Origin: an uncultured Clostridia bacterium
Lineage (GTDB): Bacteria; Bacillota; Clostridia; Oscillospirales; Ruminococcaceae
Assembly (NCBI GenBank): GCA_947624575.1
Contig: CANQKY010000001.1
Span: 68,964 to 132,963 of the forward strand
Direction: 5' to 3'
Length of the DNA: 64,000 nucleotides
This document shows, in pieces, positions 5,559 to 50,991 of the stretch. Within the stretch, counting starts at the first letter, position 1. Every line of letters starts with the position of its first letter. The translations under genes and the position numbers were made by a program. Below the pieces are notes generated by a model. That model ran no database searches. It had not been told where the DNA came from and worked only from the letters and a program-made list of their open reading frames with translations.

Positions 5559-7367
5559 ATGAAAGATATCAGAGAATATCTTTTAGAAGCTTTTTCCAAA
5601 TATTCATCAAATAATGTGATTTGCACCTCTAAAAAAGAGATTTCCTATTCTGAACTCTATCAATATGTATGTTCATTTGCGATATCGGTAAAAAACAGGT
5701 GTGAAAATAATACTAATGGGCAATATTTTGCATTATACATACATTCCCCTGAGAAAGAAATAATTGCACAACTAGCCATACTTTTACTTGGTGGAGTATG
5801 TGTCCCCTTGGATAAGTCAGTCCCGTTAAATTATTATGATCTTAAACGATTTTCTGAAATAGAGTATATTATTACAGACGACGATGAAATCAACCATTTG
5901 TGTAATTTAATGGTGATTAATATGAATAAAGTTGAAATTGATCTAGTGCAAAGCAATGATTTACATTTCAAAATGTCGGCAATAGCTGACAAAGTTGTAT
6001 ATTGCATTATGACATCTGGGACAACTGGAAAGCCCAAGGCAGTGTTACTAAAACAAGATGCGGTTATTAATCAAGTTAAAGCTAAAATACTTGTGCTTAG
6101 TATGAATGAGAAGAGCCGGCTTTGCTTGTCGACAAATTTATCGTTTGTCACTTCAATTTGGCAAATTTTAGCTACGGTTTTTGTGGGAGGATGCATTGTC
6201 GTCCTGAATGAGGCCGAACGAATTAACCCATTAGAAATGTTTAATAGAGCGGACAATTTAGGATCTACAATTATATGTACTGTCCCTTCTGTAATGAGCG
6301 TTTTTTTATCCACTGATACGCATAAAAGAAAAAATCAATTTGACAATATATCAACACTTGTATTAACAGGAGAACCACTGCCGTCAAGATTAGCTCAGAG
6401 CATTATAAATGCGTATAAAGTACGAGTTATTAATGCATATGGTCAAACTGAATGTACGGATGATACATTTCATTTTGTTTTGGAAGACAATTTTGATTTC
6501 AACAAACACCTTTTTGTTCCTATTGGCTATCCAGTATCGAATATTGATTACGTTATTGTGAATAGTGAGGGAGTTGCCGAAACTGATATTCTAACTGGTG
6601 AATTGTGCATTACAGGAACGTGCTTATCTCTAGGATATTTAGATGACGATGAAATGACAAACAAAAAATTTAAGACGATAAACGGAGATGACGATAGAAC
6701 ATTCTATTTCACAGGCGATCTTGTATCGCAACTTGATAACGGCATGCTAGTCTGTCATGGTAGAGTAGATAATCAAATCAAAATTAATGGTTGTCGTATA
6801 GAACCCGAAGCCATTGAAGCGCATTGTATGAATTATTCTGGAGTTGAGGATGCGTTGGCGATAAGGGTAAAAAATCTGAATAGTGAATACATACATTTGA
6901 TTTATAAAGAAAATGATGATGAGCCGGTTGATACTCTCGATTTAAGGAATTATCTCACTCAAAATCTTCCTTCATATATGATCCCTGCGATAATTACGAA
7001 AACGAAAAGCATACAATACGGCAGTAATGGAAAAAAGATTCGAAAAATCGAAGAATTATTGCAACGGAAAAAGGAGGACAGGAGTAGTATTTCAGCATTG
7101 GAAAGCAAAGAAATCTCCAAAGATGTTCTATATGGTTTGGTGCACACAGTTTTTAGAGATGTAATTCGAAGAGAGCTAAATATGAATTTGCCCTTGGATA
7201 TGCGATTGGATTCTTTGGTAAATTCACTTGAGTTTGTATATTTAGTGGTTGAACTGGAACAGATTTTAGGAATTGAGTTTGATTTAGACAAGTTCGCTGT
7301 AAGTGCATTCTCGACATTAAATGATTTTTTGGAATATGTTTTGGCTGAGAATAAAAGGACTGATTGA
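5559..7367 (+). CDS. AMP-binding adenylation enzyme with C-terminal carrier (phosphopantetheine) domain
   Basis: A-domain cores [58 protein letters not shown]-terminal [20 protein letters not shown] fits a carrier-protein helix II. Confidence 0.88.
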
Positions 7368-7711
7368 TTATGATTGAGATGTTAAAATCAAAAATACATA
7401 GAGCAACAGTGACAGACTCAAATTTAAATTATGAGGGTTCAATTACTATTGCAAAAGAATTAATTGATGCTGCAAAACTTTTTGAGTTTCAAAAGGTGAG
7501 TGTTGTAGATATTAATAATGGGAACAGATTTGAGACATATGTTATCTCTACAGATGATGAGGGTAAAATATGTGTAAATGGCGCTGCTGCTCGGCTTGTA
7601 AGTAAAGGTGATCTTGTTATAATTATGGCGTATATGCTTATAGATGAAGACACGGAGACAATGCATATCCCAACAATTGTAAAAGTTGATGGCAACAACT
7701 TGATTATTTAA
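7364..7711 (+). CDS. Aspartate 1-decarboxylase (PanD)-like, pyruvoyl type
   Basis: SKIHRA, NYEGS (Gly-Ser self-cleavage site), [23 protein letters not shown] match PanD landmark residues. Confidence 0.9.
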
Positions 7712-7733: not shown

Positions 7734-7773
7734 TTGTGTATGGAAAGAACTGATTGTGTATGGAAAGAACTGA
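7734..7773 (+). repeat. Exact 20-bp tandem duplication (TTGTGTATGGAAAGAACTGA x2) spanning the carrier-protein start codon
   Basis: 7734-7753 and 7754-7773 identical; read directly. Confidence 0.97.
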
Positions 7774-8014
7774 TATTGTAAATGCATTTCGTACAGCCAT
7801 TATATCTAACGAAAACTTGAGCAGATCTTTATTTTCCAAAGGAGAAATTCCAGAGAATATAAGTGATTTAGTTCTGTCAATATCCTCATTGGATTTTGCA
7901 GATTTGCTGATAAATGTTGAAGAGGTACTTGGCGTTGAATTTGCTGAGGGGTGCATGACAGCAACTAACATTAGTATAGGTGAACTTATTGAAAGGATAG
8001 AAAAAATTGTATAA
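7760..8014 (+). CDS. Stand-alone acyl/peptidyl carrier protein
   Basis: ISSLDFADLLINVEEVLGVEF fits the Ppant-Ser helix; ATG at 7760 used (the track start at 7754 is TTG). Confidence 0.82.
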   Translation: MERTDIVNAFRTAIISNENLSRSLFSKGEIPENISDLVLSISSLDFADLLINVEEVLGVEFAEGCMTATNISIGELIERIEKIV

Positions 8015-9413
8015 TATCACACACATTTTTGATGTTGATGGGGGGAAATACGCTCTTGATTTCCGTAATATATTCTTTTGTCAGTTAGATAAAAAAACGG
8101 AGAGCGAATTAAATGGCTACTTGACGGTCGATGGTCAAATAAGCGATGATTATGCTTTTGGAACTGCGCTGGATGCAGCGGTGAGACATGGCTTCTTTAT
8201 ATCGAATCATCCCGATGAACCAATACCATTGTTTGACTATGATACATTAAATATATCTTTTGCACCGGTGCATGATTGTAATTTTTCATGTGCCTACTGC
8301 TACGCAGAAGGCGGTAAAGGTACAGCCAGCTACCAAAGAAGCTTTGATAAAGATATGATTGATGCTATGCTGAACTATATTTATGTTACTAAATATAGTA
8401 ATTATCAGAAGTACAAGTTTGATTTTGTGAGCGGTGGTGAACCTTTATTAAACCTTGATATTTTGGAGTATTTTTTGAAACAGGTGCGCATTTTTGATTG
8501 GAAGTATAATAAAAAAACAGCAATTCTAATTGTTACAAATGGTTCTTTATTGACATCTGAAATCATAAAAAAACTTGATAAATATGATGTTTATTTAGGA
8601 ATAAGCATTGACGGACGACGACATATCCATAATCTTCATAGGGTGTACAAAAATGGTATAGGAACATATGACGATGTCGTAGCCGCGATAACCAATCTTC
8701 GTGCCTCCAGTGCCTCCTTCAAATTGAAAGATGCATGGGCGATGTCGGTTATTACTCCTAAAACTGGCAATCTAGTTGATCTAATGGAACATTGTATGGA
8801 ATTAGGCTTCAAACGTATGCAAATGCAGTTATTGCGTGTTCCTAACAATCACCATTTGAGATTTCACGATTTAACAAGTTTAAAAAACAAATATAAGGAA
8901 TTGTTTGCATATATACTATTATGTGCGGAAAAGGGCAATTTAGATCCTTTGAAAATGATTGCTAATGATAATGATTCGTTCGGGAAATTTATTGCAAGAT
9001 TAATTTTAAGAAAAAAAGTGTGTTATCGCTGTTTTGCCGGAAAAAACAAAATTGCGATAACAGCAGATGGAATTGTGTTTCCTTGCGATAGTTTTTGTGG
9101 AGATAGCAAATTTGCTATGGATTCGATTATTAATCCGGCAGAAAATGAATCAGTAAGAGAAGAGTTTCAATGTGCGCATATACAGCATAGAGAAAAATGT
9201 TCAACCTGCTGGGCTCGCTTTTTATGTGGGGGAGATTGTTATTACAATAGTTTCGTTATCAATGGTAATATTTATGATCCAGATCCTTTTATATGTGAAA
9301 TGAATCGTTTTTTTATAGAATATGCCATTTATATGATAATGAGGCTTTATGAAGTGGATAAGAAGAATATCGATTATATGGCAAGGCTATTAAGCGTTAA
9401 TAGTTACCTATGA
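8007..9413 (+). CDS. Radical SAM/SPASM peptide maturase
   Basis: CNFSCAYC cluster motif, FDFVSGGEPLLN, C-terminal SPASM cysteines (FPCDSFCG ... CSTCWARFLCGGDC). Confidence 0.93.
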   Translation: MYNITHIFDVDGGKYALDFRNIFFCQLDKKTESELNGYLTVDGQISDDYAFGTALDAAVRHGFFISNHPDEPIPLFDYDTLNISFAPVHDCNFSCAYCYAEGGKGTASYQRSFDKDMIDAMLNYIYVTKYSNYQKYKFDFVSGGEPLLNLDILEYFLKQVRIFDWKYNKKTAILIVTNGSLLTSEIIKKLDKYDVYLGISIDGRRHIHNLHRVYKNGIGTYDDVVAAITNLRASSASFKLKDAWAMSVITPKTGNLVDLMEHCMELGFKRMQMQLLRVPNNHHLRFHDLTSLKNKYKELFAYILLCAEKGNLDPLKMIANDNDSFGKFIARLILRKKVCYRCFAGKNKIAITADGIVFPCDSFCGDSKFAMDSIINPAENESVREEFQCAHIQHREKCSTCWARFLCGGDCYYNSFVINGNIYDPDPFICEMNRFFIEYAIYMIMRLYEVDKKNIDYMARLLSVNSYL

Positions 9414-9485: not shown

Positions 9486-9779
9486 TTGGAACTGGATTAC
9501 TTGAACGATCTTTTTGAGGAGTTGAATCCGGAAGATTGTCTGGCAATCGAAGGCAGTGGTATTCCAAATACTAGTGGTACAAATGATGTAGTGACAGTTG
9601 TTGGTGGTACAATTGCTATTGTTGGTTTAGCTGTTGTCGCCGGGGCGGCAGTTTCCTTATATTGCCCTCGTTGCAATATTTGGTTTGCTGCCAAAAACAC
9701 AGGTAATGGCAATGTTTATTCTGAATATTGCCCAAATTGTAATCAGTTAGTATCAGGATATGGTTCTAGTGGTTGCTAG
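9486..9779 (+). CDS. Candidate modified-peptide precursor with double-glycine-type leader, TM segment and CPRC/CPNC pairs (97 aa, TTG start)
   Basis: SD AAAGGAGG (9471-9478), about 7 nt before TTG 9486. Leader ELDYLNDLFEELNPEDCLAIEGS/G with I-4, L-12, F-15; then a Gly/Val/Ala-rich hydrophobic stretch and CPRC-x-CPNC. Confidence 0.65.
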   Translation: MELDYLNDLFEELNPEDCLAIEGSGIPNTSGTNDVVTVVGGTIAIVGLAVVAGAAVSLYCPRCNIWFAAKNTGNGNVYSEYCPNCNQLVSGYGSSGC

Positions 9780-9815: not shown

Positions 9816-9847
9816 AAAGAGCATATTTGCTCTGTGGTATGCTCTTT
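9816..9847 (+). terminator. Hairpin after the precursor gene (weak/partial terminator or attenuator)
   Basis: AAAGAGCATA ... TATGCTCTTT, 10-bp stem, no strong U tract. Confidence 0.5.
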
Positions 9848-9919: not shown

Positions 9920-10591
9920 ATGAAAAAGTATCTAAAATATATCATCATGATCGTTCTGCCGGTTGCGCTCGATCAGGGGATCAAACTGGTGATCAGCCGC
10001 TTTTACGCCTTTGACAGCGACCCGTCCGAGTTTGCCGGAGGGTTTCATATTCATCCGATGATCAATTACGACACATATGTCGCATTGTCGGGGAAGGCGG
10101 CGCAATCGGGGCAGGAGATCGGCTTCTGGATCGGGGTATATGCGCTGCAGCTATGCTGCGTCATGCTGCTTGTTTTAACCTTTTATTATATGACCTGTGC
10201 TGTAAGTGCTATTGTGAAAAAGAAGAAAATGCCGGTTTTGTTTTCTGTGGGAGCCAGTCTCACGGTTGCCATCACGATTAACAGAATACTGGATCTGGTG
10301 TTGCGAAAGGGCGCGCTCGATTATCTCTGCTACTCTAAGCTTGAGCATATAGAAGAAAAAGGTCTGGTGCGGCACATGAGCAATCACATGACATTTGATT
10401 TAACTGATTTGTATGCGCTTATCACGGTTGTGCTGGTGGCGATTTATGCTTTGCGGCAGTTCTTCACCTTTATTTGGCTGAATATGCATAAAGAACAGGA
10501 AAAAGAGTTTACGCAGGAGCTTAAACGTCGCGTCAAAGCGTTTTTCAAAAAACCGATTGGCTTAATGGGAGAAAAGACAGATGAATCGTGA
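9920..10591 (+). CDS. Signal peptidase II (LspA)-like integral membrane protein
   Basis: VALDQGIKLVI, INRILDLVLRKGALDYL and FDLTDLYA echo the LspA N-x-x-D / FN-x-A-D catalytic pair; 4 TM segments. Confidence 0.65.
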   Translation: MKKYLKYIIMIVLPVALDQGIKLVISRFYAFDSDPSEFAGGFHIHPMINYDTYVALSGKAAQSGQEIGFWIGVYALQLCCVMLLVLTFYYMTCAVSAIVKKKKMPVLFSVGASLTVAITINRILDLVLRKGALDYLCYSKLEHIEEKGLVRHMSNHMTFDLTDLYALITVVLVAIYALRQFFTFIWLNMHKEQEKEFTQELKRRVKAFFKKPIGLMGEKTDES

Positions 10592-11783
10592 CAGTCTGAA
10601 ACGAATTTGGAACTCATGCAGCCGGTTTGCGGATATCTTTCTACTGCACCTTATTGTGGTGCAGGGGGTTTATTTTTCTGTTTTGTTTTTCAGGACCCGT
10701 TTTGATCTCGTCACAACGGAATTGGATTTTAACGGAAAACTTCTGCCGGTCACCTGTCTCATTCTTATGCCGCTGGTGTTTTACTCGCTGGTGCGAATGG
10801 TGGTGATCTACAGCGAACCGCTGATGGAACAGTTTTTTAAAGTGCCGGAGGAGGAGTGGAACTTCCAAAAAAAGTTTCAGTTTTTGTTCCGGCAAAAAGC
10901 CTTCTGGTTCGCAACTGCCGCTTGGGTCGCTTTGTATCTTCTTCTGCCGCTCAAATGGACTTATGCCGTACTGCTGGACACCTTCCTCAAAGGGCAGGAC
11001 AGCATAGCAGGAAAGATGTATCTTCTTGCGGTGCTGTTTCCGCTGTTCTTCCTGCTTGCGGTCGCCGCGTATTTTGCCGCATTCCGTTATTGGACCACCT
11101 ATAAAAAGGGAAAATCATCACTGCGTTATGTGGGCGAAACGATGCGAAAGGCTTATAGAAGAACACTTTTGTCGGTGATTGCCGTTTATGCCATGGCGGG
11201 ATTGATCGTATGTATGCTGTTACCGGTTTTTTTGTCTATTCTGCTGCCGATCGTCTGGACAGTGATCTGGCCGAACGGGATTATTGCGCTTGCGGTAGGC
11301 ATTGCGGTGGCGGCACTGCTCTTTCGACTGCAGGGACTTTTGAAGCGCCGGAAGTTCTTAAAGCGGTTGAAGCGAATGGAGCGGGATCATCTCTGCGAGG
11401 TGACCGGGATCAACCGCCCTTACCGTTCTGTTTTTGCACTTTATGACGGGGAGAGCTTCCGCGTAAAGCGAAACGGGAAAGAATATGCCTGCAAGCTGGT
11501 GAGCGCCCTTAGAAAAAGTCGACCGATGGTGATCCATGAAAACGGAGTCTACGAATTGATCCGCAGTAAATATATCCCATTCGGACAGCGTGGGTATGAC
11601 TTCGGATTTGATGCCGACTGCCAAAAGGTTTTGATTTTAAGCCCGACCCCAAAGCTCATTTTTGACAGCAGAATGCGCCAACTCGATAACGGGGATACCG
11701 TCGGCGGGTATAAGCTCTACACCGGCACGGCTTTTCTAAACGCCCTTGAGCGCGACTGCATCGACCACAACCTGAACCGATAG
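10581..11783 (+). CDS. Multi-pass membrane protein of unknown function, coupled to the LspA-like gene
   Basis: Several TM helices, soluble C-terminal domain, 11-nt overlap with the upstream gene. Confidence 0.6.
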   Translation: MNRDSLKRIWNSCSRFADIFLLHLIVVQGVYFSVLFFRTRFDLVTTELDFNGKLLPVTCLILMPLVFYSLVRMVVIYSEPLMEQFFKVPEEEWNFQKKFQFLFRQKAFWFATAAWVALYLLLPLKWTYAVLLDTFLKGQDSIAGKMYLLAVLFPLFFLLAVAAYFAAFRYWTTYKKGKSSLRYVGETMRKAYRRTLLSVIAVYAMAGLIVCMLLPVFLSILLPIVWTVIWPNGIIALAVGIAVAALLFRLQGLLKRRKFLKRLKRMERDHLCEVTGINRPYRSVFALYDGESFRVKRNGKEYACKLVSALRKSRPMVIHENGVYELIRSKYIPFGQRGYDFGFDADCQKVLILSPTPKLIFDSRMRQLDNGDTVGGYKLYTGTAFLNALERDCIDHNLNR

Positions 11784-11796
11784 AGAGGATAAAACT

Positions 11797-12114
11797 ATGG
11801 AGCGGTCAACAAAAACACTAAGTATATCTTGCACACCATGTCGGATTAACGAATGTTTTTATCAGGGTGATGACATGGTTGAAATGCGTAATCAAAAAGG
11901 AGTATTTCGCTTAAAAGGAATAGGTGCAGCTATATGGCAAATGTTAGATGGTAAGCACACCATCGAAATGATTATAGATGAATTGTGTAGTATGTTAAAT
12001 ATCAATGAAAAAAACAAAATATATGATAAACTGATGCACTTATTATTTCTATTAGAAGAAAAAAGTTTAGTGATTATTGATTGGGATCCGCTTTATAAAT
12101 CGCTTTATAAATAA
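11797..12114 (+). CDS. PqqD-like (RRE-type) peptide-binding protein
   Basis: VFRLKGIGAAIWQMLDGKHTIEMIIDELC is a PqqD fold signature; directly precedes a radical SAM gene. Confidence 0.78.
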   Translation: MERSTKTLSISCTPCRINECFYQGDDMVEMRNQKGVFRLKGIGAAIWQMLDGKHTIEMIIDELCSMLNINEKNKIYDKLMHLLFLLEEKSLVIIDWDPLYKSLYK

Positions 12115-13427
12115 TGGAGGATATTCAAATGGAAAAGAGGTTGGATGTGTTACTAGTATCTCCCCCATCACCAAATCCTCTAATGTTAAAATCGTTTAAA
12201 AGGCAGGGCATGCCACCTCTGGGGCTTGGATATATTGCAACATATCTTAAACAAGCAGATTATTCAGTGGCGATAATGGACATGGGATTAGAGGATAATA
12301 CTATGGATGTTTTGTTAGATACTATTAAAACACAAAAACCTAGTATTGTTGGGATATCATGTTCAACAGAAACTTATAACACCACAATTAGAATTGCAAA
12401 AATCATTAAAGAAATCAATGGGGATATTTGCATTGCATTGGGTGGTCCACATGTCTCACTACAATACAATACAATATTTGGTAAAGAAAATATTATTGAT
12501 TTTGCAATGATCAATGAAGGTGAAATAAGTTTTAAAAAACTATGTGACTATTACATTCGTAAAACACTTAATTTAGAAGATCTTAGAAGTGTGGTCTATG
12601 TAAAGAAAGGGAAAACAATTACAACTCCTCTTGAACCATTTATAGAAGATTTGGATTCATTACCATTTCCCGATCGTTCCTTGTTTGATCCTTTGGATAA
12701 ATATGCAATTCCTGCTACGATTTCTACTAGCAGAGGATGCCCAGGTAAGTGCGCATTTTGTGCAGCTGGAGTGCTTTCCGGCGGAAGATATAGAATGCGG
12801 TCGGCAAAAAATGTAGTTGATGAGTTCCAATACTTACAATCGCTGGGTTATAATCATGTAACCATCGTAGATGATACAATGACCGTAAACAAAAAGAGAT
12901 TGTATGAATTTGCGGATGAATTAATAGCTAGAAAAGTAATGATGACATGGTATTGTGAGTCAAGGATAGATGTTATTACAAGGGAAATGCTTATAAAAAT
13001 GAAAGCAGCCGGGCTTACAGAAATACAATTTGGCGTGGAATCAGGGAATCAAAATGTTTTAGATAACATAAACAAGGGCATTCTTTTAGACAAAGTATAT
13101 ACGGTTTTCAAATGGTGCAAAGAAATGCACATTCACACAATAACCAATTTGATAATCGGACAACCTTCTGATACAAAAGAAACAATTAAAGAGACTATAG
13201 CATTAGGAGAGCAACTGATTGATCTTGGCGCGCAGTTAAGTTTTACGATTTGTACGCCCTTTCCCGGAACTCCTCTTTGGGAAAAGGCGGATGAATATGG
13301 AATAGAAATAGTGGATTATGATTTAGATCATTATTCTACATATCACCCTGTGTATAATACTAGGTATTTAACAGCAAAAGAAATTCGAAATGAATTCTAT
13401 AATGCTTTTAAAATATTTGATAAGTAA
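12114..13427 (+). CDS. B12-binding-domain radical SAM enzyme
   Basis: N-terminal cobalamin-binding-like domain (PPLGLGYIATYLKQ, GGPHVS), CPGKCAFC cluster motif. Confidence 0.92.
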   Translation: MEDIQMEKRLDVLLVSPPSPNPLMLKSFKRQGMPPLGLGYIATYLKQADYSVAIMDMGLEDNTMDVLLDTIKTQKPSIVGISCSTETYNTTIRIAKIIKEINGDICIALGGPHVSLQYNTIFGKENIIDFAMINEGEISFKKLCDYYIRKTLNLEDLRSVVYVKKGKTITTPLEPFIEDLDSLPFPDRSLFDPLDKYAIPATISTSRGCPGKCAFCAAGVLSGGRYRMRSAKNVVDEFQYLQSLGYNHVTIVDDTMTVNKKRLYEFADELIARKVMMTWYCESRIDVITREMLIKMKAAGLTEIQFGVESGNQNVLDNINKGILLDKVYTVFKWCKEMHIHTITNLIIGQPSDTKETIKETIALGEQLIDLGAQLSFTICTPFPGTPLWEKADEYGIEIVDYDLDHYSTYHPVYNTRYLTAKEIRNEFYNAFKIFDK

Positions 13428-13483: not shown

Positions 13484-15550
13484 ATGGGGTTTAAAAGTAT
13501 GAAGAATGTAACTACATCGATTCCGTATAAAGTGTGTAATCAATTTCAGGTCAGCATACTTGATGATCAGGTTGTATATATTAATTGTCATGACAATTAT
13601 TATATACAAGTGCCGAAAGATGCTCATAACTGGATATTATCCAATACAAAAGATATTGAGCATCAAGATCAATATTACCCTATTTTAATTCAATTATTAG
13701 ATATGCATGTAATTGAATTAGATTTAGATAGGCTTTGTGTTGGGAAGGCATCATTTTTTGTTGAGCAGAAGGTCGGGCATCCAAGAGAACATTTTCATTT
13801 ATCAGAAATATATGTTGACAGGATCTTCACAATTCAACTGCTACATCAGTATGGGTATATAAACGGCAAAACACATATTAATTATTTGCATAATTCAAAC
13901 GAAAATATTGATGGCGATTTTTTAAAAAATGTAAGTGTCATTGTAAATTCATTTAATCAATTACACAAGTATCACAATATAATTTGCAAAAACCTGCGTT
14001 TTGAAGCAAATACGATACCAAACAAAAGAGATATTGACATACTTGTAGATATTTTGGCACATCATTCTGTTGACATCATCATTAAATATACTACACCGAC
14101 AGATGTGGCTCGTTCATTTTTCAATTTAAAAATAAAGCTCGGAAATGACAATTTAACAATATCTCATGATTACTGTTCAATGATGTCAAAATCAAAGATT
14201 CATAATAATAATTTTGTGGCTTGTCCAAATGTCTCAAATCGGAATATTAAGTGCATTAAGTTATCCTGTGGAGCTGGCAGTACTAAGTTTTTTGTTGATT
14301 CTCTAGGGGATGTCTTCCCTTGTGTTCATATGAAAACTTCTAAACCTCTTGGCAATATTAAAGATGACACCCCTCATGAATTGCTTAATAATGCCAACAC
14401 ATATCACAGAGGGATTTTTTCAAAATGTAGGTCGTGTCCGGCATTGTTCTTTTGTGGCGGCGGATGTCAGGCGGAATATGCCAAAAGCGGATATGTGTTT
14501 TGCGATAAAATAAAAAAAGTAATTGTAGATGAATTTAATGGAAGAAATAAAAAAATATGCATGGATTTAATTGAAGCACAGAAAGACTTGAGTGCGTATG
14601 AATATATGTGCGAGAGAAATGCACAAAGAATTCTGCTAATAGGGTATGGCATTAAAGAGCCATTATTTTTGATGCGTCCCGGCTTTTATATTGATAGTTG
14701 CAATTTTTCTCAGACTGGAATTTTTTCCACTTCCTTTTCGCGAGGAATTTTGGATTCTGAAGCGGTTCCGGTTTTAGGGGAGATGAGGTTTGGTCTGGAC
14801 TGGGAAACAATTAATTGGCATTTGCAAAAAGGACAAATTGTTCAGATTACTGTGGATGTGTTTTATTTGCCGTATAAATATAATACATACTTTAATAAAA
14901 GTCATGGGTCACACACTGTTTTTTTATTGAGAAAAACAGAAAAGGGATATATTGTTTTAGACTGGTATCATCCCGACTATTTTATTGGTGAACTTTCTTT
15001 AGAACAATTGACCGCTGCAAGAATGTCAGAAAATCCGAAAAATCAAATAAGTGCATTTAGTGGTTCACCTATTAATGGGGCATATCGCTTGCTAAATATG
15101 AATGGTGTTAGTAATAATGTTTGCGTTCGAGATACTGTATATAAAAACATGTATTTTTTAGTGCAATCGATGTTGGATGCGAATGGCACATTATCGCATA
15201 TTAAGAAATTGCAGACAGAAAAGCCGCAATGGTTAAATGATCCCAAACAAGTAGGGTATTCAAATGCCATAGAGTCATTTTTCTTATTAGAACTAGAGAC
15301 AAGATTTTTAATATTATATTATACAGCGATGGTGGAAGAAGATCAGTTTACTTCTTTTCACCCTGAAGGAATTGTGAAAGCTGTCGTTGAAATTCAAAAA
15401 CAGATACAGAAAATTAAGAATACATTGATTATTGCTCATCGAAGAGTAAAGGCGATAGATGAGAGAGAATGGCGTGAAATGTTAGGTGCTTTTTATAATA
15501 AATTGTATCAATATTGTGAAATGTTGATAAAATCAATGAAAAAAATGTAG
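13484..15550 (+). CDS. SPASM-domain protein lacking the CxxxCxxC motif, fused to a C-terminal BtrH_N-like (C39-like fold) domain
   Basis: SPASM-type cysteines (LSCGAG...FPCVHM...CRSCPALFFCGGGC); no CxxxCxxC anywhere; C-terminus GQIVQITVDVFYLPY...SHGSHTVFLL...IVLDWYHPDYFIGELS. Confidence 0.7.
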   Translation: MGFKSMKNVTTSIPYKVCNQFQVSILDDQVVYINCHDNYYIQVPKDAHNWILSNTKDIEHQDQYYPILIQLLDMHVIELDLDRLCVGKASFFVEQKVGHPREHFHLSEIYVDRIFTIQLLHQYGYINGKTHINYLHNSNENIDGDFLKNVSVIVNSFNQLHKYHNIICKNLRFEANTIPNKRDIDILVDILAHHSVDIIIKYTTPTDVARSFFNLKIKLGNDNLTISHDYCSMMSKSKIHNNNFVACPNVSNRNIKCIKLSCGAGSTKFFVDSLGDVFPCVHMKTSKPLGNIKDDTPHELLNNANTYHRGIFSKCRSCPALFFCGGGCQAEYAKSGYVFCDKIKKVIVDEFNGRNKKICMDLIEAQKDLSAYEYMCERNAQRILLIGYGIKEPLFLMRPGFYIDSCNFSQTGIFSTSFSRGILDSEAVPVLGEMRFGLDWETINWHLQKGQIVQITVDVFYLPYKYNTYFNKSHGSHTVFLLRKTEKGYIVLDWYHPDYFIGELSLEQLTAARMSENPKNQISAFSGSPINGAYRLLNMNGVSNNVCVRDTVYKNMYFLVQSMLDANGTLSHIKKLQTEKPQWLNDPKQVGYSNAIESFFLLELETRFLILYYTAMVEEDQFTSFHPEGIVKAVVEIQKQIQKIKNTLIIAHRRVKAIDEREWREMLGAFYNKLYQYCEMLIKSMKKM

Positions 15551-15655
15551 TTATACACCCTTTTTACATTGACCATATGTAAACCCAGAAAAAGGCTCAA
15601 GGGTTCACAATTACTGCTTTTATTTGTTTGCTCTCTTAAGGAGGTAGAAGGTTTT

Positions 15656-17815
15656 ATGTTATTTAAGCAGTATCCTTTTATCAATCAACGAGGGCATAAT
15701 GATTGTGCAATAGCATGCCTTAAAATGATAGCCGATTATTATCACATAAAGGTTCATTCAGAAAAATTGCGGGAACTAGCTGGCATCAATCAAAAAGGAA
15801 CAAGCATTTATGGGATTGTCGCTGCTGCTAAAAGTGTAGGACTTATTTCAAAAGTTGTTAAAGGAGCAGGGTCGACAAATATCTTATCATCGCTTGTCTT
15901 GCCGTGCATTGCACTAGTTCATGTAGATAATTCCGCGCATTATATTGTAATATATAAAGTGAAAAAGAATAATACTGTAGTTATCGCAGATCCTTTGAAG
16001 GGGGTATTGCGGTTTAAAGTAAGTAGTCGAGGCGATGCAATTCATACTATTAATAATGAATATACATTTTCAGGAATTTATATTTTGTTTTCTCCTAATA
16101 CAGCCAATCACGGCGATAATTCAAATACCACAATTATAAGACAGTTTGCAAGTATATTAAAACCATATAAAAAAATAATCACATCGAATTTGGCACTATT
16201 CTTTTTACATATAATAATTGAAATTGTTGCTACTTTTTTTGTTTGCTTATTTTTATCTATGCAAACCGACTCGTTTGATTTAAAACTAATGATGATGGTA
16301 ATTATGATCATTTTGCTATATCATATTTTATACGCAAAGTTACGAGCACATATAAAAACCAAAATAAGTTATAGAATAAGTACACATATGGGCTTGAATT
16401 ATCATAGCCATATTATGGCGTTACCTATGAGTTTTTTTGATTCGCGAAATGTGGCTGAAATATATTCCCGTTTTGATAATATATCTAATATTTCTCTTGC
16501 AATTGCGGAAGTCGTTTTGACAGTACTTATAGATTTCACACTTATTTTATTAGGACTTTTCTTGGTATTTATGAAAAGCGGTCCTTTATTCATTATACTA
16601 TGTATAAGTTGCTGCATCAGATTTTTGGTATTCTGGCATGCGGATTGTCATTTTTCTTTATACCGGAATAGTTATAAGGGAATATCAATTGAAAATAGAA
16701 TTTGGCAATCTATTAAACACATATTAAAGATAAAAAGCAATACTATCAGCCATACTGTGACATTACAGTTAAAAAATGATATTGAAAACTATTTTTATAA
16801 TAATATTATATATAAAATATCATCGCAGCTGCAAAGAAAAGCTCATACGATAATAACAATTGTTCTTTTGGTAATGGAATGCGGAGCGTTCTACTATATG
16901 TTAAAGGCTGGTATTATAAATATTCAGCTATTATATTTTTCTCTGGCTTTTTATCTTTTTTTTGCGGAATCTATAATGAATCTTGATTATATTAGAGATA
17001 AAATCATATGTGTTTGCGATCCATATAATGAGATGAAAGAAGTTATAGACTTGGCATCAGAAGAAAATCCAGACAAGTTGGTTTTGTCAAAAGCAATATC
17101 TTGCCTCGAAGCAAAAGATGTTTCCTTTCAATATGGTAATGGGGGAAAAGTATTAGAAGACCTTTCATTTAGTGTAAAGGCGGGAGAAACTATTGCTTTT
17201 GTAGGAGAGTTTGGAGCAGGTAAATCAACAATTGCAAAATTAATCATGAAGCTATATGAGCCGACACACGGTAATATATTGGTAGATAATGTTCCTTTAG
17301 TAGATGTTGAGACAGCGTCACTGAGAGAGCATATAGTTTATATTTCTCAAGAATTATACTTTTTTAATTGTACAATCATCGAATATCTAACCTTTGGAAT
17401 TACTCATGTGAAATTTGATGATATTATTACAGCAACAAGGATTGCAGGATGCTTTAACTCTATAAATGCGTTGCCTTTGGGATTTCAAACTAAGTTAACA
17501 GAATTTGGAGATAATTTTTCTTATACACATCGTCAATTGTTGGCCTTGGCAAGGGCAATATTGAAAAAGGCGGATATATATTTATTTGATGAAGTCGTAA
17601 GCACTTTAAATATTTCAATAGCAAAAAAATATTTATGTAATCAGAATTATCATCCAATATTTATTTTTATGACGCAAAAGCTTGAAGTTATAAAAGAAAG
17701 CGATAAAGTCTTTGTGTTAAAAGAAGGGAAGATTATAGAAACAGGTACACATGAAGAACTGGAAAAAAGTAAAGGCCATTATGCGAAACTTATAAACAAT
17801 GGTTTTATATTTTAA
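15656..17815 (+). CDS. Peptidase C39-containing ABC exporter (PCAT) with non-canonical ATPase motifs
   Basis: QRGHNDCAIACLKMIADYYH and SAHYIVIYKV...ADP (C39 triad); Walker A GEFGAGKST; signature reads FSYTHRQ; SD AAGGAGG before ATG 15656. Confidence 0.9.
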   Translation: MLFKQYPFINQRGHNDCAIACLKMIADYYHIKVHSEKLRELAGINQKGTSIYGIVAAAKSVGLISKVVKGAGSTNILSSLVLPCIALVHVDNSAHYIVIYKVKKNNTVVIADPLKGVLRFKVSSRGDAIHTINNEYTFSGIYILFSPNTANHGDNSNTTIIRQFASILKPYKKIITSNLALFFLHIIIEIVATFFVCLFLSMQTDSFDLKLMMMVIMIILLYHILYAKLRAHIKTKISYRISTHMGLNYHSHIMALPMSFFDSRNVAEIYSRFDNISNISLAIAEVVLTVLIDFTLILLGLFLVFMKSGPLFIILCISCCIRFLVFWHADCHFSLYRNSYKGISIENRIWQSIKHILKIKSNTISHTVTLQLKNDIENYFYNNIIYKISSQLQRKAHTIITIVLLVMECGAFYYMLKAGIINIQLLYFSLAFYLFFAESIMNLDYIRDKIICVCDPYNEMKEVIDLASEENPDKLVLSKAISCLEAKDVSFQYGNGGKVLEDLSFSVKAGETIAFVGEFGAGKSTIAKLIMKLYEPTHGNILVDNVPLVDVETASLREHIVYISQELYFFNCTIIEYLTFGITHVKFDDIITATRIAGCFNSINALPLGFQTKLTEFGDNFSYTHRQLLALARAILKKADIYLFDEVVSTLNISIAKKYLCNQNYHPIFIFMTQKLEVIKESDKVFVLKEGKIIETGTHEELEKSKGHYAKLINNGFIF

Positions 17816-27462: not shown

Positions 27463-28329
27463 TCAACTTGCGGTTTGCATTAAGAGAATGGCCGCAGCGC
27501 GCAGAATGTTATCCGATCCCTTATATCCGTTGATATAGTATTTCAAGCTGGCGGGTCGTCTTTCGGCAACGGTAGCCATTGTCCATCCGCTGCAGGTTCC
27601 TTCTTTCACAACATAGCTTTTGGCTTCCTCTATGGTCATCATAGAGCATATCGTTTCCACCGGCATATCGGCAGTATAACCGGGCTCCTCGATGATCTCT
27701 TCAAATTCGTCCGCATCTATTGTGATCGTTTCAGCCGGTGCCGTTTCCCGGACGGGAACGGTGGCTTCTGCAGGTGGATGCTGCTCTGCCAAAACAGCCT
27801 GTGCAGGCACATTTGTTGCAGTTGCGTCGGCAGGTTTGTCTTCATGTGCTTTTGAGCTTACCGGTTGTTTACCAATCGGCATGATCTTTTTATGTGTGGA
27901 TAAGGTCTTTTGAGTTTCCGGGTGATCCGGTATGAATTGAATGCCAAAGCCTGCATCGGATAACGCCTGACTGATAGCAGAGTTTTGAGCTGCTTTCAGA
28001 TAGTCGGGAGCTTCTCCTTTCTTGCACTGGGCAATATGGCTGGCAGCCGGTTCCGTATCGCGCCTGTCAAAATAGACCCGCGCTTCCATAATCGCCAGCT
28101 GGTCGGTCAGTTTTACCAGCATAGATTTGACTTTGCCGTTAGGAAATTTCAAGCGGAACCAAAGTTTCTGATAGGGTGTGTCCAGGATCATGCCGTTCTC
28201 GGTTGCCCTCACATAATGCATGGGATCAAATCCCGGCACATGGTTCAGATTTGACACCGTGGAATTCACATGATAAATCGAATTTTCCTTTTTCATCTTA
28301 AAAATACTCCTTTCATAAATACGAAACAC
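27463..28329 (-). CDS. Uncharacterised protein, possible single-strand annealing protein
   Basis: ARVYFDRRDTEPAASHIAQC...YLKAAQNSAISQALSDAGFGIQF; sits between primase and RecD2 genes. Confidence 0.4.
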   Translation of the reverse strand: MFRIYERSIFKMKKENSIYHVNSTVSNLNHVPGFDPMHYVRATENGMILDTPYQKLWFRLKFPNGKVKSMLVKLTDQLAIMEARVYFDRRDTEPAASHIAQCKKGEAPDYLKAAQNSAISQALSDAGFGIQFIPDHPETQKTLSTHKKIMPIGKQPVSSKAHEDKPADATATNVPAQAVLAEQHPPAEATVPVRETAPAETITIDADEFEEIIEEPGYTADMPVETICSMMTIEEAKSYVVKEGTCSGWTMATVAERRPASLKYYINGYKGSDNILRAAAILLMQTAS

Positions 28330-28354
28330 CTATAAGGTTTTCTGCAAAGTCTGT

Positions 28355-30604
28355 TTAACTTGCCATTTTTTCCTGCTTTTGTTTGAGGGCGAGCGCATTC
28401 AGATACTTCTTAATGCGTTCCCCCAGCATGGTCTTTCGCCGTCCGGCGTCATTTTTGTGGATCGCCATAATCAGCATGCCTTTTTGTCCTACCATAATTA
28501 CCTTTTCCTTAGCACGGGTGATAGCGGTGTAAATCAAATTACGCTTGAGCATAATAGCATGACTTTTCATAATCGGAAGGATAACGGTGTCATACTCGGA
28601 TCCCATCGCTTTATGGATCGTTGTGGCGTATGCCAGTTCGATGTGAGCCATCTGCTCCAGATTGTATTTTGCAATACGATCCTCGGCAAACGCGATTGTA
28701 ACTTTGAGTTCACCTGTATCATCATGCTGTATTTCCCGAATGAATCCAATGTCACCGTTTGAAGCGGATGCGCCGTTCTTTGTTTGCATCACTTTATCGC
28801 CCACACGAAAGTAACGACTGCCGACTTTCAAATCAGGCAGATCGTTCTGTGATGGATTCACTAATTCGCGAATCGTCCGATTAAGCTGATCTACTGCCGT
28901 AAGACCTTCCAAGCGAAAAGGGGAAAGGATTTGCACCCGATCAATACCGTGTTTTGCCACCTGTTCACAGAATATTTGGCAAATTAAATCTGCGGCTTCC
29001 TCCTGTGTTTTACACTTCACAAACTGGAACTCATCACCGTAACGCAGATTGCTTTGATCTGCGTTGATACTTTGTGCATTTTGTGCAATCAGACTGCCCT
29101 TTTTCTGACGGAAGATCTCGTCCAGCCTTGTGACGGGAATTTTCCCACAGGAGATCATCTCCCGAAACACATCGCCGGCACCGACACTTTGCAGCTGGTC
29201 TGCATCACCTACCAAAAGCACTTTGGTGGAAGGATGTACGCGCCGAAAGAATTGCCGTGCAAGCCACATATCGATCATGGAACTCTCATCTACAATAATC
29301 ATCGCGGCATCCAGCGTTTCCTCGGATTTATCTTTTGGCATATATTCATCCTCGCTCAATAGACCAAGCATACTGTGTAAGGTGCAGGCTTGTTGTTGAC
29401 CGGTGCTTTCCGCCATACGGCGGCTTGCTCTGCCGGTCGGCGCCGCCAGCAGTATTTTTCCTTTTGGATTGAGCTGCCGGAACACTTCGATTATCGCCCG
29501 TAAAACGGTCGTTTTGCCGGTGCCGGGTGAACCGGTGATGATAGATAGATTGCTGCGAAATGCCATATAGACTGCTTCTGTCTGCTTTTGGGAGAGCGCA
29601 ATACCTAATTTGCTGCGAATTTGCTCCAGAACAGGCGCGATATCCAAATGATCGGGAACGAAGGAAAGAAGCTGTGCGATTTTCAGCGCGGTTTCATCTT
29701 CCTGAACAAAGCATTTGATGAGATAGATGTTTCCGTTACTGCTGACAACCTCTCCCTGAAGGATCATTCGATCCAAAACAGAGCATATTTCTTCGACCCT
29801 CACTCGCATTTGCGGCAGTGGTATTTTTTCATTCAAGAGTTGAGCGGCAGCTTTTATGAGCTTTTCGCTCTCTAAAAACAAATGTCCGTGCTCATTCTTT
29901 TGGGTTTCCAAAGCCGCATAAATGGCACCATGGATACGCATGGGCGAATTTGGTGGGCAGTCGCCTTTTAGAACGATTGCATCTACTCGTTTGAATCCAA
30001 AGCCGGATATCTGGCAGAGTTCATATGGATTGTTTTGCAGTATCTCAACGCTTTTGGCTCCAAAATGGTTGTAGATTTTCATTGCTGTTGCCGGCGTTAC
30101 CTGAAACGGTGAGAGCAGCATCATAATATCCCGCAGACTTCTGCTTTCAACATAGGAATTTTGGATATCCTGCAGTTTAGAGGGAGTGATCCCCTTTATT
30201 TCCAACAGCCGTTCCGGTTCATTCTCCAGAATTTTTAAGGCATCTGCGCCAAACCGCGCAACGATCAGGTCTGCGGTTTTATCCCCGATACCTTTGATTA
30301 AACGAGAAGAGAGGTATCCTTTTATTCCGTCTTTGGTCTGCGGCACAATTTCCTCACAAGATACAACTTGAAGCTGGTAGCCGTGTTTACTGCTTTGCCA
30401 CTCTCCGTCCAGAATCATGCTGACCTGATCGGTTCGCGGCAGCTCATAGCCCACGGCGACAAATCTGATGAGATGGTCGCGGTGATGATATGCGCTGCGT
30501 GCTTTCTGCGGTATGCTTTGATCGGAAGTCTTTACGCTGATCACACAGTATTTGCTTGTAGGATTGTAAAAGATAGTCCGATCATAGACGCCGAGATAAC
30601 TCAT
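28355..30604 (-). CDS. RecD2-like ATP-dependent DNA helicase
   Basis: ITGSPGTGKTTVLRAI, IIVDESSMIDMWLA, LVGDADQLQSVGAGDVFREMI, LAYATTIHKAMGSEYDTVILP. Confidence 0.93.
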   Translation of the reverse strand: MSYLGVYDRTIFYNPTSKYCVISVKTSDQSIPQKARSAYHHRDHLIRFVAVGYELPRTDQVSMILDGEWQSSKHGYQLQVVSCEEIVPQTKDGIKGYLSSRLIKGIGDKTADLIVARFGADALKILENEPERLLEIKGITPSKLQDIQNSYVESRSLRDIMMLLSPFQVTPATAMKIYNHFGAKSVEILQNNPYELCQISGFGFKRVDAIVLKGDCPPNSPMRIHGAIYAALETQKNEHGHLFLESEKLIKAAAQLLNEKIPLPQMRVRVEEICSVLDRMILQGEVVSSNGNIYLIKCFVQEDETALKIAQLLSFVPDHLDIAPVLEQIRSKLGIALSQKQTEAVYMAFRSNLSIITGSPGTGKTTVLRAIIEVFRQLNPKGKILLAAPTGRASRRMAESTGQQQACTLHSMLGLLSEDEYMPKDKSEETLDAAMIIVDESSMIDMWLARQFFRRVHPSTKVLLVGDADQLQSVGAGDVFREMISCGKIPVTRLDEIFRQKKGSLIAQNAQSINADQSNLRYGDEFQFVKCKTQEEAADLICQIFCEQVAKHGIDRVQILSPFRLEGLTAVDQLNRTIRELVNPSQNDLPDLKVGSRYFRVGDKVMQTKNGASASNGDIGFIREIQHDDTGELKVTIAFAEDRIAKYNLEQMAHIELAYATTIHKAMGSEYDTVILPIMKSHAIMLKRNLIYTAITRAKEKVIMVGQKGMLIMAIHKNDAGRRKTMLGERIKKYLNALALKQKQEKMAS

Positions 30605-49632: not shown

Positions 49633-50991
49633 TTATTCGCTGAGTGCCGCTTTGATCATGATCGCACATTCCAGCCGCTTTTTTTCCAGCTCACAGGAGA
49701 GCCGGTGCGGCTTTGTGATACTGCCCGCATATTGCAGGCTGTTGGCGTTGCAGCCGCCGCTGCAATAAAATTTTGCCCAGCAAGCCTGACATTCGGGCTT
49801 GCTGTAAATATTGGTGCGGGCGAACAGGTCCTTTTTCTCAAGGTCAAGGGTGTCGGTCAGCACGCTGCCCATTTTCCAGTCCTCCATGCCGACAAACTGA
49901 TGACAGGGATAGATGTCCCCGTCGGGGGTGACGGCAACATACTCGTTCCCGCAGCCACAGCCCCGAAGCCGCTTGATCGCGCAGGGACCCTGATCGAGAT
50001 CGAGCATGAAGTGGAAGAAGTTAAAGCCGCGTCCCGCCTTTTCGCGCGCGATCAGCTCACGGCTGAGCTTCTCGTACTCCGCAAAGATCGCAGGCAGGTC
50101 GTCCTCGGTCAGCGCATAAGGAGCCGTCGCGGGCGCCACCACCGGTTCGACCGAGATCTGGTCGAAGCCCAGCTCGTTTAGGTGGAACACGTCCTTTGAA
50201 AAATCAAGATTGTACTTGGTAAAGGTCCCCCGCACGTAGTAATCCCGATCGCCCCGCGCCTCCACCAGACGGCGGTATTTCGGCACGATCGCGTCATAGC
50301 TTCCGCTGCCGTCCACGCGGGCGCGCACGCGGTCGTTCACCTCACGCCGTCCGTCAATCGAAAGCACGACATTCGACATCTCGCGGTTGATAAAGTCAAT
50401 GCTGTCATCGTTGAGCATTAGACCGTTGGTGGTGATGGTGAACCGGAAGTTTTTTCCATACTCCGCTTCCTTGCTGCGGGCGTATGCGACCACCTCCTTC
50501 ACCGCATCGAAGTTCATCAGCGGCTCGCCGCCGAAGAAATCGACCTCCAGATTCCGCCGCCCGTAGGAACGCTTTAGGAGAAAGTCGATCGCCTTTTTGC
50601 CGGTCTCGGCGGGCATCAGCTTCCTGCCGGCGCCGAAATCGCCGGTCGATGCAAAGCAATAGCTGCACCGCAGGTTGCAGTCGTGCGCGATGTGCAGGCA
50701 GAGCGCCTTGACCGGTGAGGACACCATTTGGTCGGCAAACTGAGCGTAGCTGTCCTCCGAAAAGAGCAGTCCGTCTGTGTAAAGGCGGTAAAGCTCGTCA
50801 TAGCAGGCGACAATATCCGCTTTAGGATACTTGCCGCCGAGCGCGGTCAAAGCCGCGTCGGGGCAACGCTCGGACAGCGGCGGCGTGAGGTACGAGAGCA
50901 GCTCGAAGCAGAGCTTGTCCACCAGATGCACCGCACCGCTGTTGACGTCGAGCAGGATATGGTAGCCGTTTAGTTCATAGGTATGTATCAT
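49633..50991 (-). CDS. scfB: SCIFF peptide radical SAM thioether maturase
   Basis: CNLRCSYC; twin SPASM cysteines (CGCGNEYVAVTPDGDIYPC...CQACWAKFYCSGGC); adjacent to SCIFF precursor. Confidence 0.93.
   Translation of the reverse strand: MIHTYELNGYHILLDVNSGAVHLVDKLCFELLSYLTPPLSERCPDAALTALGGKYPKADIVACYDELYRLYTDGLLFSEDSYAQFADQMVSSPVKALCLHIAHDCNLRCSYCFASTGDFGAGRKLMPAETGKKAIDFLLKRSYGRRNLEVDFFGGEPLMNFDAVKEVVAYARSKEAEYGKNFRFTITTNGLMLNDDSIDFINREMSNVVLSIDGRREVNDRVRARVDGSGSYDAIVPKYRRLVEARGDRDYYVRGTFTKYNLDFSKDVFHLNELGFDQISVEPVVAPATAPYALTEDDLPAIFAEYEKLSRELIAREKAGRGFNFFHFMLDLDQGPCAIKRLRGCGCGNEYVAVTPDGDIYPCHQFVGMEDWKMGSVLTDTLDLEKKDLFARTNIYSKPECQACWAKFYCSGGCNANSLQYAGSITKPHRLSCELEKKRLECAIMIKAALSE

Follow-up and report, generated by a model that had tools for sequence, protein, structure and literature searches.

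Introduction

SPASM domains are known as the tails of radical SAM enzymes, and enzymes of the BtrH fold are known from antibiotic biosynthesis, where they form amides in a carrier-dependent manner. In the SCIFF/PapB-type radical SAM-SPASM maturases, such as CteB (PDB entry 5wgg), the SPASM domain contains seven cysteines. The lincosamide condensing proteins CcbD and LmbD and the azinomycin protein AziU3 contain no SPASM domain and act on small-molecule substrates; the structure of CcbD has been solved with a PCP domain. The goadvionin transferase is of the GNAT type, and neither a BtrH fold nor a SPASM fusion nor PanD is known to us in the goadvionin, lipolanthine or selidamide pathways. BtrH from the butirosin pathway is annotated as taking an acyl group off an acyl carrier protein and attaching it to an amine (PMC10318531). 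For CtaG, the proposed reaction links two acyl groups that are both bound to carriers; the enzyme belongs to the biosynthesis of closthioamide, a beta-alanine pathway that is nonribosomal and involves no precursor peptide (PMC6772006). In the goadvionin, lipolanthine and selidamide pathways a ribosomal peptide is acylated (PMC9505594), the acyl groups being fatty or polyketide ones; the transferases of the selidamides are of the GNAT type.

Here we describe a protein in which a SPASM domain is joined to a domain of the BtrH type. Its gene is located in a window of 64,000 nucleotides (positions below refer to this window) from an uncultured Clostridia bacterium. The fusion resembles BtrH (PF14399) in its papain-like fold and in the regions around the histidine and the aspartate, while BtrH has an aminoglycoside substrate and no SPASM part. 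With CtaG it shares the predicted fold and, probably, a beta-alanine pathway; CtaG is a stand-alone protein, whereas the fusion carries a SPASM domain and is encoded in a gene row with a precursor peptide. The predicted fold is also like that of CcbD/LmbD and AziU3, and the enzyme is unlike the GNAT-type transferases of the selidamides.

Results

Architecture of the fusion protein

The fusion is encoded on the plus strand at 13484-15550, in a single unbroken frame of 688 codons, and was delimited from the open reading frame and from Pfam and NCBIfam matches. The frame proposed in an earlier note, made from the sequence, is intact. The amino-terminal region (residues 1-255, 13484-14248) belongs to no detectable family. 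In a low-confidence model it contains strands followed by helices (residues 20-75) and then alternating beta- and alpha-elements (residues 106-203). The earlier note had suggested a PqqD/RRE-like recognition domain here; the low-confidence model does show strands then helices, but no PqqD/RRE match was obtained with Pfam, even at an E-value of 10, and the suggestion has no support in the sequence. A home-made RRE profile failed its own positive controls and is powerless.

A radical SAM barrel profile gave -0.5 bits on residues 95-215, a score equalled or exceeded by 774 of the 1859 scored shuffles. A hidden barrel in these residues, drawn from a by-eye alignment running from GGEP to NSNEN, was dropped, its score being no better than that of shuffles. 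The model of the 349 amino-terminal residues, which is of low confidence, has no significant fold match, and radical SAM enzymes are absent among the hits listed. With 160 residues, the segment ahead of the SPASM domain is on the short side for a complete barrel; in L014 the CxxxCxxC motif and the start of the SPASM domain are about 240 residues apart. Neither the sequence profile nor the low-confidence model gives a barrel signal in residues 95-255.

The SPASM domain is made up of residues 262-340 (14267-14503, plus strand) and scores 30.4 bits against Pfam PF13186 (cut-off 21.5) and 47.4 against NCBIfam TIGR04085 (cut-off 27). Cysteines 262, 280, 315, 318, 324, 328 and 340 are invariant in an alignment with 11 radical SAM/SPASM enzymes. 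The SPASM-type cysteines noticed earlier are thus a full set of seven, as in the SCIFF/PapB-type maturases. Unlike these maturases, the fusion has no CxxxCxxC motif anywhere in its 688 residues, as had been noticed before, no GGEP motif and no detectable barrel. Lacking the motif for the SAM-binding cluster, the SPASM domain is predicted from the sequence to be incapable of radical chemistry; all seven cysteines are retained, and therefore two auxiliary clusters could form.

The BtrH-type domain, a papain-fold acyltransferase domain, spans approximately residues 355-688 (14546-15547, plus strand), with Cys376 (nucleotide 14609), His477 and Asp493 as its triad. The fusion scores 21.3 bits against Pfam BtrH_N (PF14399), under the cut-off of 29.7. 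When its carboxy-terminal half is used as a query, stand-alone BtrH-like proteins of 340-380 amino acids are retrieved from Clostridia, with E-values down to 9e-13. In an alignment of the fusion, nine relatives and a 311-residue protein encoded in the window, Cys376, His477 and Asp493 are near-invariant and occur in papain order; the exception at the catalytic cysteine is the 311-residue protein.

Because MAFFT misaligned combined sets of radical SAM and BtrH sequences, structures were predicted from separate BtrH-only and SPASM-only alignments. The AlphaFold model of the fusion obtained with the BtrH-only alignment has a mean pLDDT of 50, with values of 63-87 over residues 431-510 in the BtrH core. 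Comparison of this model to the PDB with Foldseek gave AziU3 (1.9e-9), CtaG (1.2e-7) and CcbD (1.8e-4) as the only matches below 1e-3; some of the CcbD entries also contain the PCP domain of CcbZ. A weak match to the C39-like peptidase of PDB entry 3erv was also found (E-value 0.05). A sequence profile search independently retrieves AziU3 at 5e-8. The PDB titles of CtaG list the variants C11A, H128A and D144N, and the spacing of 16 residues between the histidine and the aspartate of the fusion is the same as that from His128 to Asp144. AziU3, CtaG and CcbD are enzymes of carrier-protein-dependent pathways. The BtrH_N/C39-like character ascribed to the carboxy-terminal third is borne out by homology, by the triad and, as far as the predicted model goes, by the matches to AziU3, CtaG and CcbD; its extent is about half of the protein (residues 355-688) and not a third.

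The domain identities are well supported, and so is the fusion itself: the SPASM domain has no radical SAM active site, and the BtrH/papain-fold domain to which it is joined keeps its triad intact. Other fusions of this kind, for which the earlier note had advised a search, were found neither in 150 kin genomes, nor in 392 genomes of the class queried with the carboxy-terminal half, nor in 150 genomes of the phylum searched by profile, nor among viral contigs and plasmids. Conserved peptide patterns retrieved none from the genome collection either, although these patterns are narrow and do not prove absence. In papers with an open licence, no report of a SPASM-BtrH fusion was found, nor one of PanD or an adenylation domain within a RiPP pathway. 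Neither the fusion nor this combination of genes was found elsewhere, although the modules themselves are known. A reading of the fusion as part of a defence system was set aside, with no match in PADLOC.

Organisation of the gene cluster

The genes between 5559 and 20667 all run in one direction, on the plus strand, with gaps of at most 140 nucleotides. The row starts with an adenylation-PCP didomain protein (5559-7367), whose PCP carries Ser556 (nucleotide 7224). This is followed by an aspartate 1-decarboxylase, PanD (7364-7711), with a Gly-Ser self-cleavage site, and by a stand-alone carrier protein, ACP (7754-8014), with Ser45 (nucleotide 7886). The ACP scores 19.0 bits, the best of 2000 shuffles reaching 10.6. 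A PapB/SCIFF-like radical SAM/SPASM peptide maturase (8007-9413) has its own CxxxCxxC motif and its own SPASM-like end. Beyond the precursor peptide gene (9486-9779) are located a PqqD/RRE protein (11797-12114; PF05402, 32.6 bits, cut-off 23.4) and a B12-binding radical SAM enzyme identified by a profile match (12114-13427), which precedes the fusion. The row continues with a C39 peptidase-ABC exporter of the leader-cleaving type (15569-17815; Pfam/NCBIfam), a second ABC transporter (17860-19641) and a second BtrH-like protein, the aforementioned protein of 311 residues (19732-20667), which belongs to a subfamily without the catalytic cysteine. These surroundings support carrier-dependent chemistry. 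The G+C content of the fusion gene is low, like that of most of its neighbours.

Between the precursor and PqqD genes, the stretch 9920-11783 has a G+C content of 46-47%, amid 28-36% for the cluster, and encodes two membrane-type proteins, one of them an LspA-like signal peptidase II; these two genes may be a later insertion. Directly behind the cluster, mobile-element genes are present (21281-30604; sigma-like region 4, PcfJ, YodL and a RecD2-type helicase), and the cluster probably rides on an integrative element. Further away, on the minus strand, a SCIFF-type radical SAM maturase of the ordinary Clostridia kind is encoded (49633-50991; G000:C1:118596-119651).

The precursor peptide, read directly from the sequence, has 97 residues: a leader of 24 amino acids, MELDYLNDLFEELNPEDCLAIEGS, and a core of 73. 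Translation probably begins with the TTG at 9486, which is separated by a short spacer from the preceding Shine-Dalgarno sequence AAAGGAGGTG. The leader is of the double-Gly type, ending in IEGS (GS-type), and is encoded in the same gene row as the C39-ABC exporter and the maturases. The core contains two CPxC motifs and a single lysine, and the amine of Gly1 becomes free only once the leader is cleaved; the acceptor amine is therefore not obvious. Searches for relatives of the precursor gave matches at chance level only. Directly behind the gene, an inverted repeat (AAAGAGCATA...TATGCTCTTT, 9816-9847) may act as a partial terminator or stabilise the mRNA.

Supply of beta-alanine

PanD scores 140 bits against TIGR00223 (cut-off 106) and is the only copy found in the source genome. 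Neither panB (ketopantoate hydroxymethyltransferase) nor panC (pantoate-beta-alanine ligase) was found in this genome, which is 98.7% complete; both are present in two relatives that have panD, and the same searches succeed on control genomes. With a single PanD and neither panB nor panC detected, the genome probably reserves the beta-alanine of this enzyme for the pathway of the cluster. In the adenylation domains of nonribosomal peptide synthetases, Asp235 anchors the alpha-amino group. In the adenylation domain of the cluster a valine occupies this position (LSFVTSIW), a substitution that, judged by sequence, fits a non-alpha amino acid.

Homologues in other clusters

The stand-alone homologues of Ruminiclostridium papyrosolvens and Clostridium tepidiprofundi adjoin A-PCP proteins, ACPs, a PPTase-like protein and ABC exporters; in these clusters, which contain A-PCP and ACP, a ribosomal precursor is not obvious. 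Domains of the cysteine-less subfamily to which the 311-residue protein belongs are also found within Clostridia open reading frames of 1631-4261 amino acids (e.g. G344:C1:1055903, G174:C1:3383412 and G437:C5:92485), where they perhaps replace or accompany megasynthase condensation domains. Elsewhere in the source genome, at L072 (10409-10624; G000:C1:30408-30623), there is a fragment that is 53% identical to the carboxy-terminal part of the 311-residue protein; it is located in another conjugative-element region, near ABC, radical SAM/SPASM and nucleotidyltransferase-like genes. At L075, a Clostridia cluster inspected by eye, a BtrH-like gene is accompanied by ACP and FkbH-like genes, a radical SAM/SPASM gene, a signal-peptidase/PqqD-like gene and two ABC transporters, possibly another hybrid pathway.

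Discussion

We tentatively favour a role of the fusion as a thiotemplated acyltransferase adapted to a peptide substrate, in which a beta-alanyl or beta-alanine-containing group would pass from the ACP to Cys376 and on to an amine of the precursor, while the SPASM domain holds the peptide. PanD would make beta-alanine, and the adenylation protein would activate it and load it onto the PCP or the ACP. By analogy to BtrH, CtaG and CcbD, Cys376 would accept the acyl group from the phosphopantetheine thioester of the carrier, assisted by His477 and Asp493, and the acyl-enzyme would then be attacked by an amine of the precursor peptide. The SPASM domain, perhaps together with the amino-terminal region, would dock the precursor, the two true radical SAM enzymes would act on the same precursor, and the C39-ABC exporter would cleave the leader after Gly-Ser. 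In this scheme we infer three things: that the acyl group is beta-alanine, that the precursor accepts it, and in which order the steps run. The earlier note had seen the protein as a scaffold that recognises the peptide and transfers a carrier-bound group to it; transfer is the natural reading of the triad, the carriers, the beta-alanine supply and the precursor in the cluster, while the word scaffold does not do the protein justice, given the full catalytic triad of its BtrH part.

The main rival is a condensation of the CtaG kind, in which the BtrH domain joins two carrier-bound amino acids, on the A-PCP protein and the ACP, into a small nonribosomal unit, perhaps without ever coming into contact with the precursor, the SPASM domain being a structural leftover or a module for binding a partner. 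In favour of it, two carriers as well as two BtrH-like proteins are encoded in the cluster; CtaG, whose proposed reaction in a beta-alanine pathway links two carrier-bound acyl groups (PMC6772006), is among the top fold matches; and the clusters of the relatives combine A-PCP and ACP with no obvious ribosomal precursor. We nevertheless hold this reading unlikely, as the BtrH domain is fused to SPASM, a domain typical of peptide-modifying enzymes, and the precursor, the PqqD protein and the C39 exporter are encoded in the same row. Should the papain-fold part instead be a hydrolase that trims the leader or edits mis-loaded carriers, the triad of the papain/C39 superfamily and the weak match to 3erv would find an explanation; leader removal is already covered by the C39 exporter, however, and the best fold and profile matches are carrier-dependent enzymes and not peptidases, which makes a hydrolase distinctly improbable.

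The SPASM domain might also be an inactive relative of radical SAM enzymes, acting as a partner of the cluster's two radical SAM enzymes or relaying electrons for them, with the BtrH domain fused merely to keep the steps together. The seven cysteines with their two possible auxiliary clusters and the presence of both enzymes in the row would agree with such a role, but each enzyme is complete alone, the one at 8007-9413 even having a SPASM-like end of its own, and the triad of the BtrH part is conserved; we consider a relay rather improbable. That the fusion occurs in no other genome searched could point to an accidental fusion or assembly join without function. An unbroken frame of 688 codons that keeps seven SPASM cysteines and a full triad, a low G+C content shared with most neighbours and a tight co-directional gene row all argue against this, and we regard it as very improbable.

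Returning to acyl transfer onto the precursor, a wider reading is possible, which we put forward with more reserve: a hybrid of RiPP and nonribosomal biosynthesis, in which a non-radical SPASM domain would guide a BtrH-type enzyme that adds a carrier-bound beta-amino acid, made by a dedicated PanD, to a ribosomal peptide. To our knowledge, such an enzyme would be the first aminoacyl-ACP-to-RiPP transferase of the BtrH fold, and the first case in which a fusion of this kind has brought a SPASM domain into non-radical catalysis. With all the parts needed in one gene row of 15 kb, the cluster is compact and testable. Each of the modules is known, while their joining is not; if the inference is right, carrier-borne beta-amino acids could be placed onto ribosomal peptides in a process that needs neither tRNA nor GNAT enzymes nor NRPS condensation domains.
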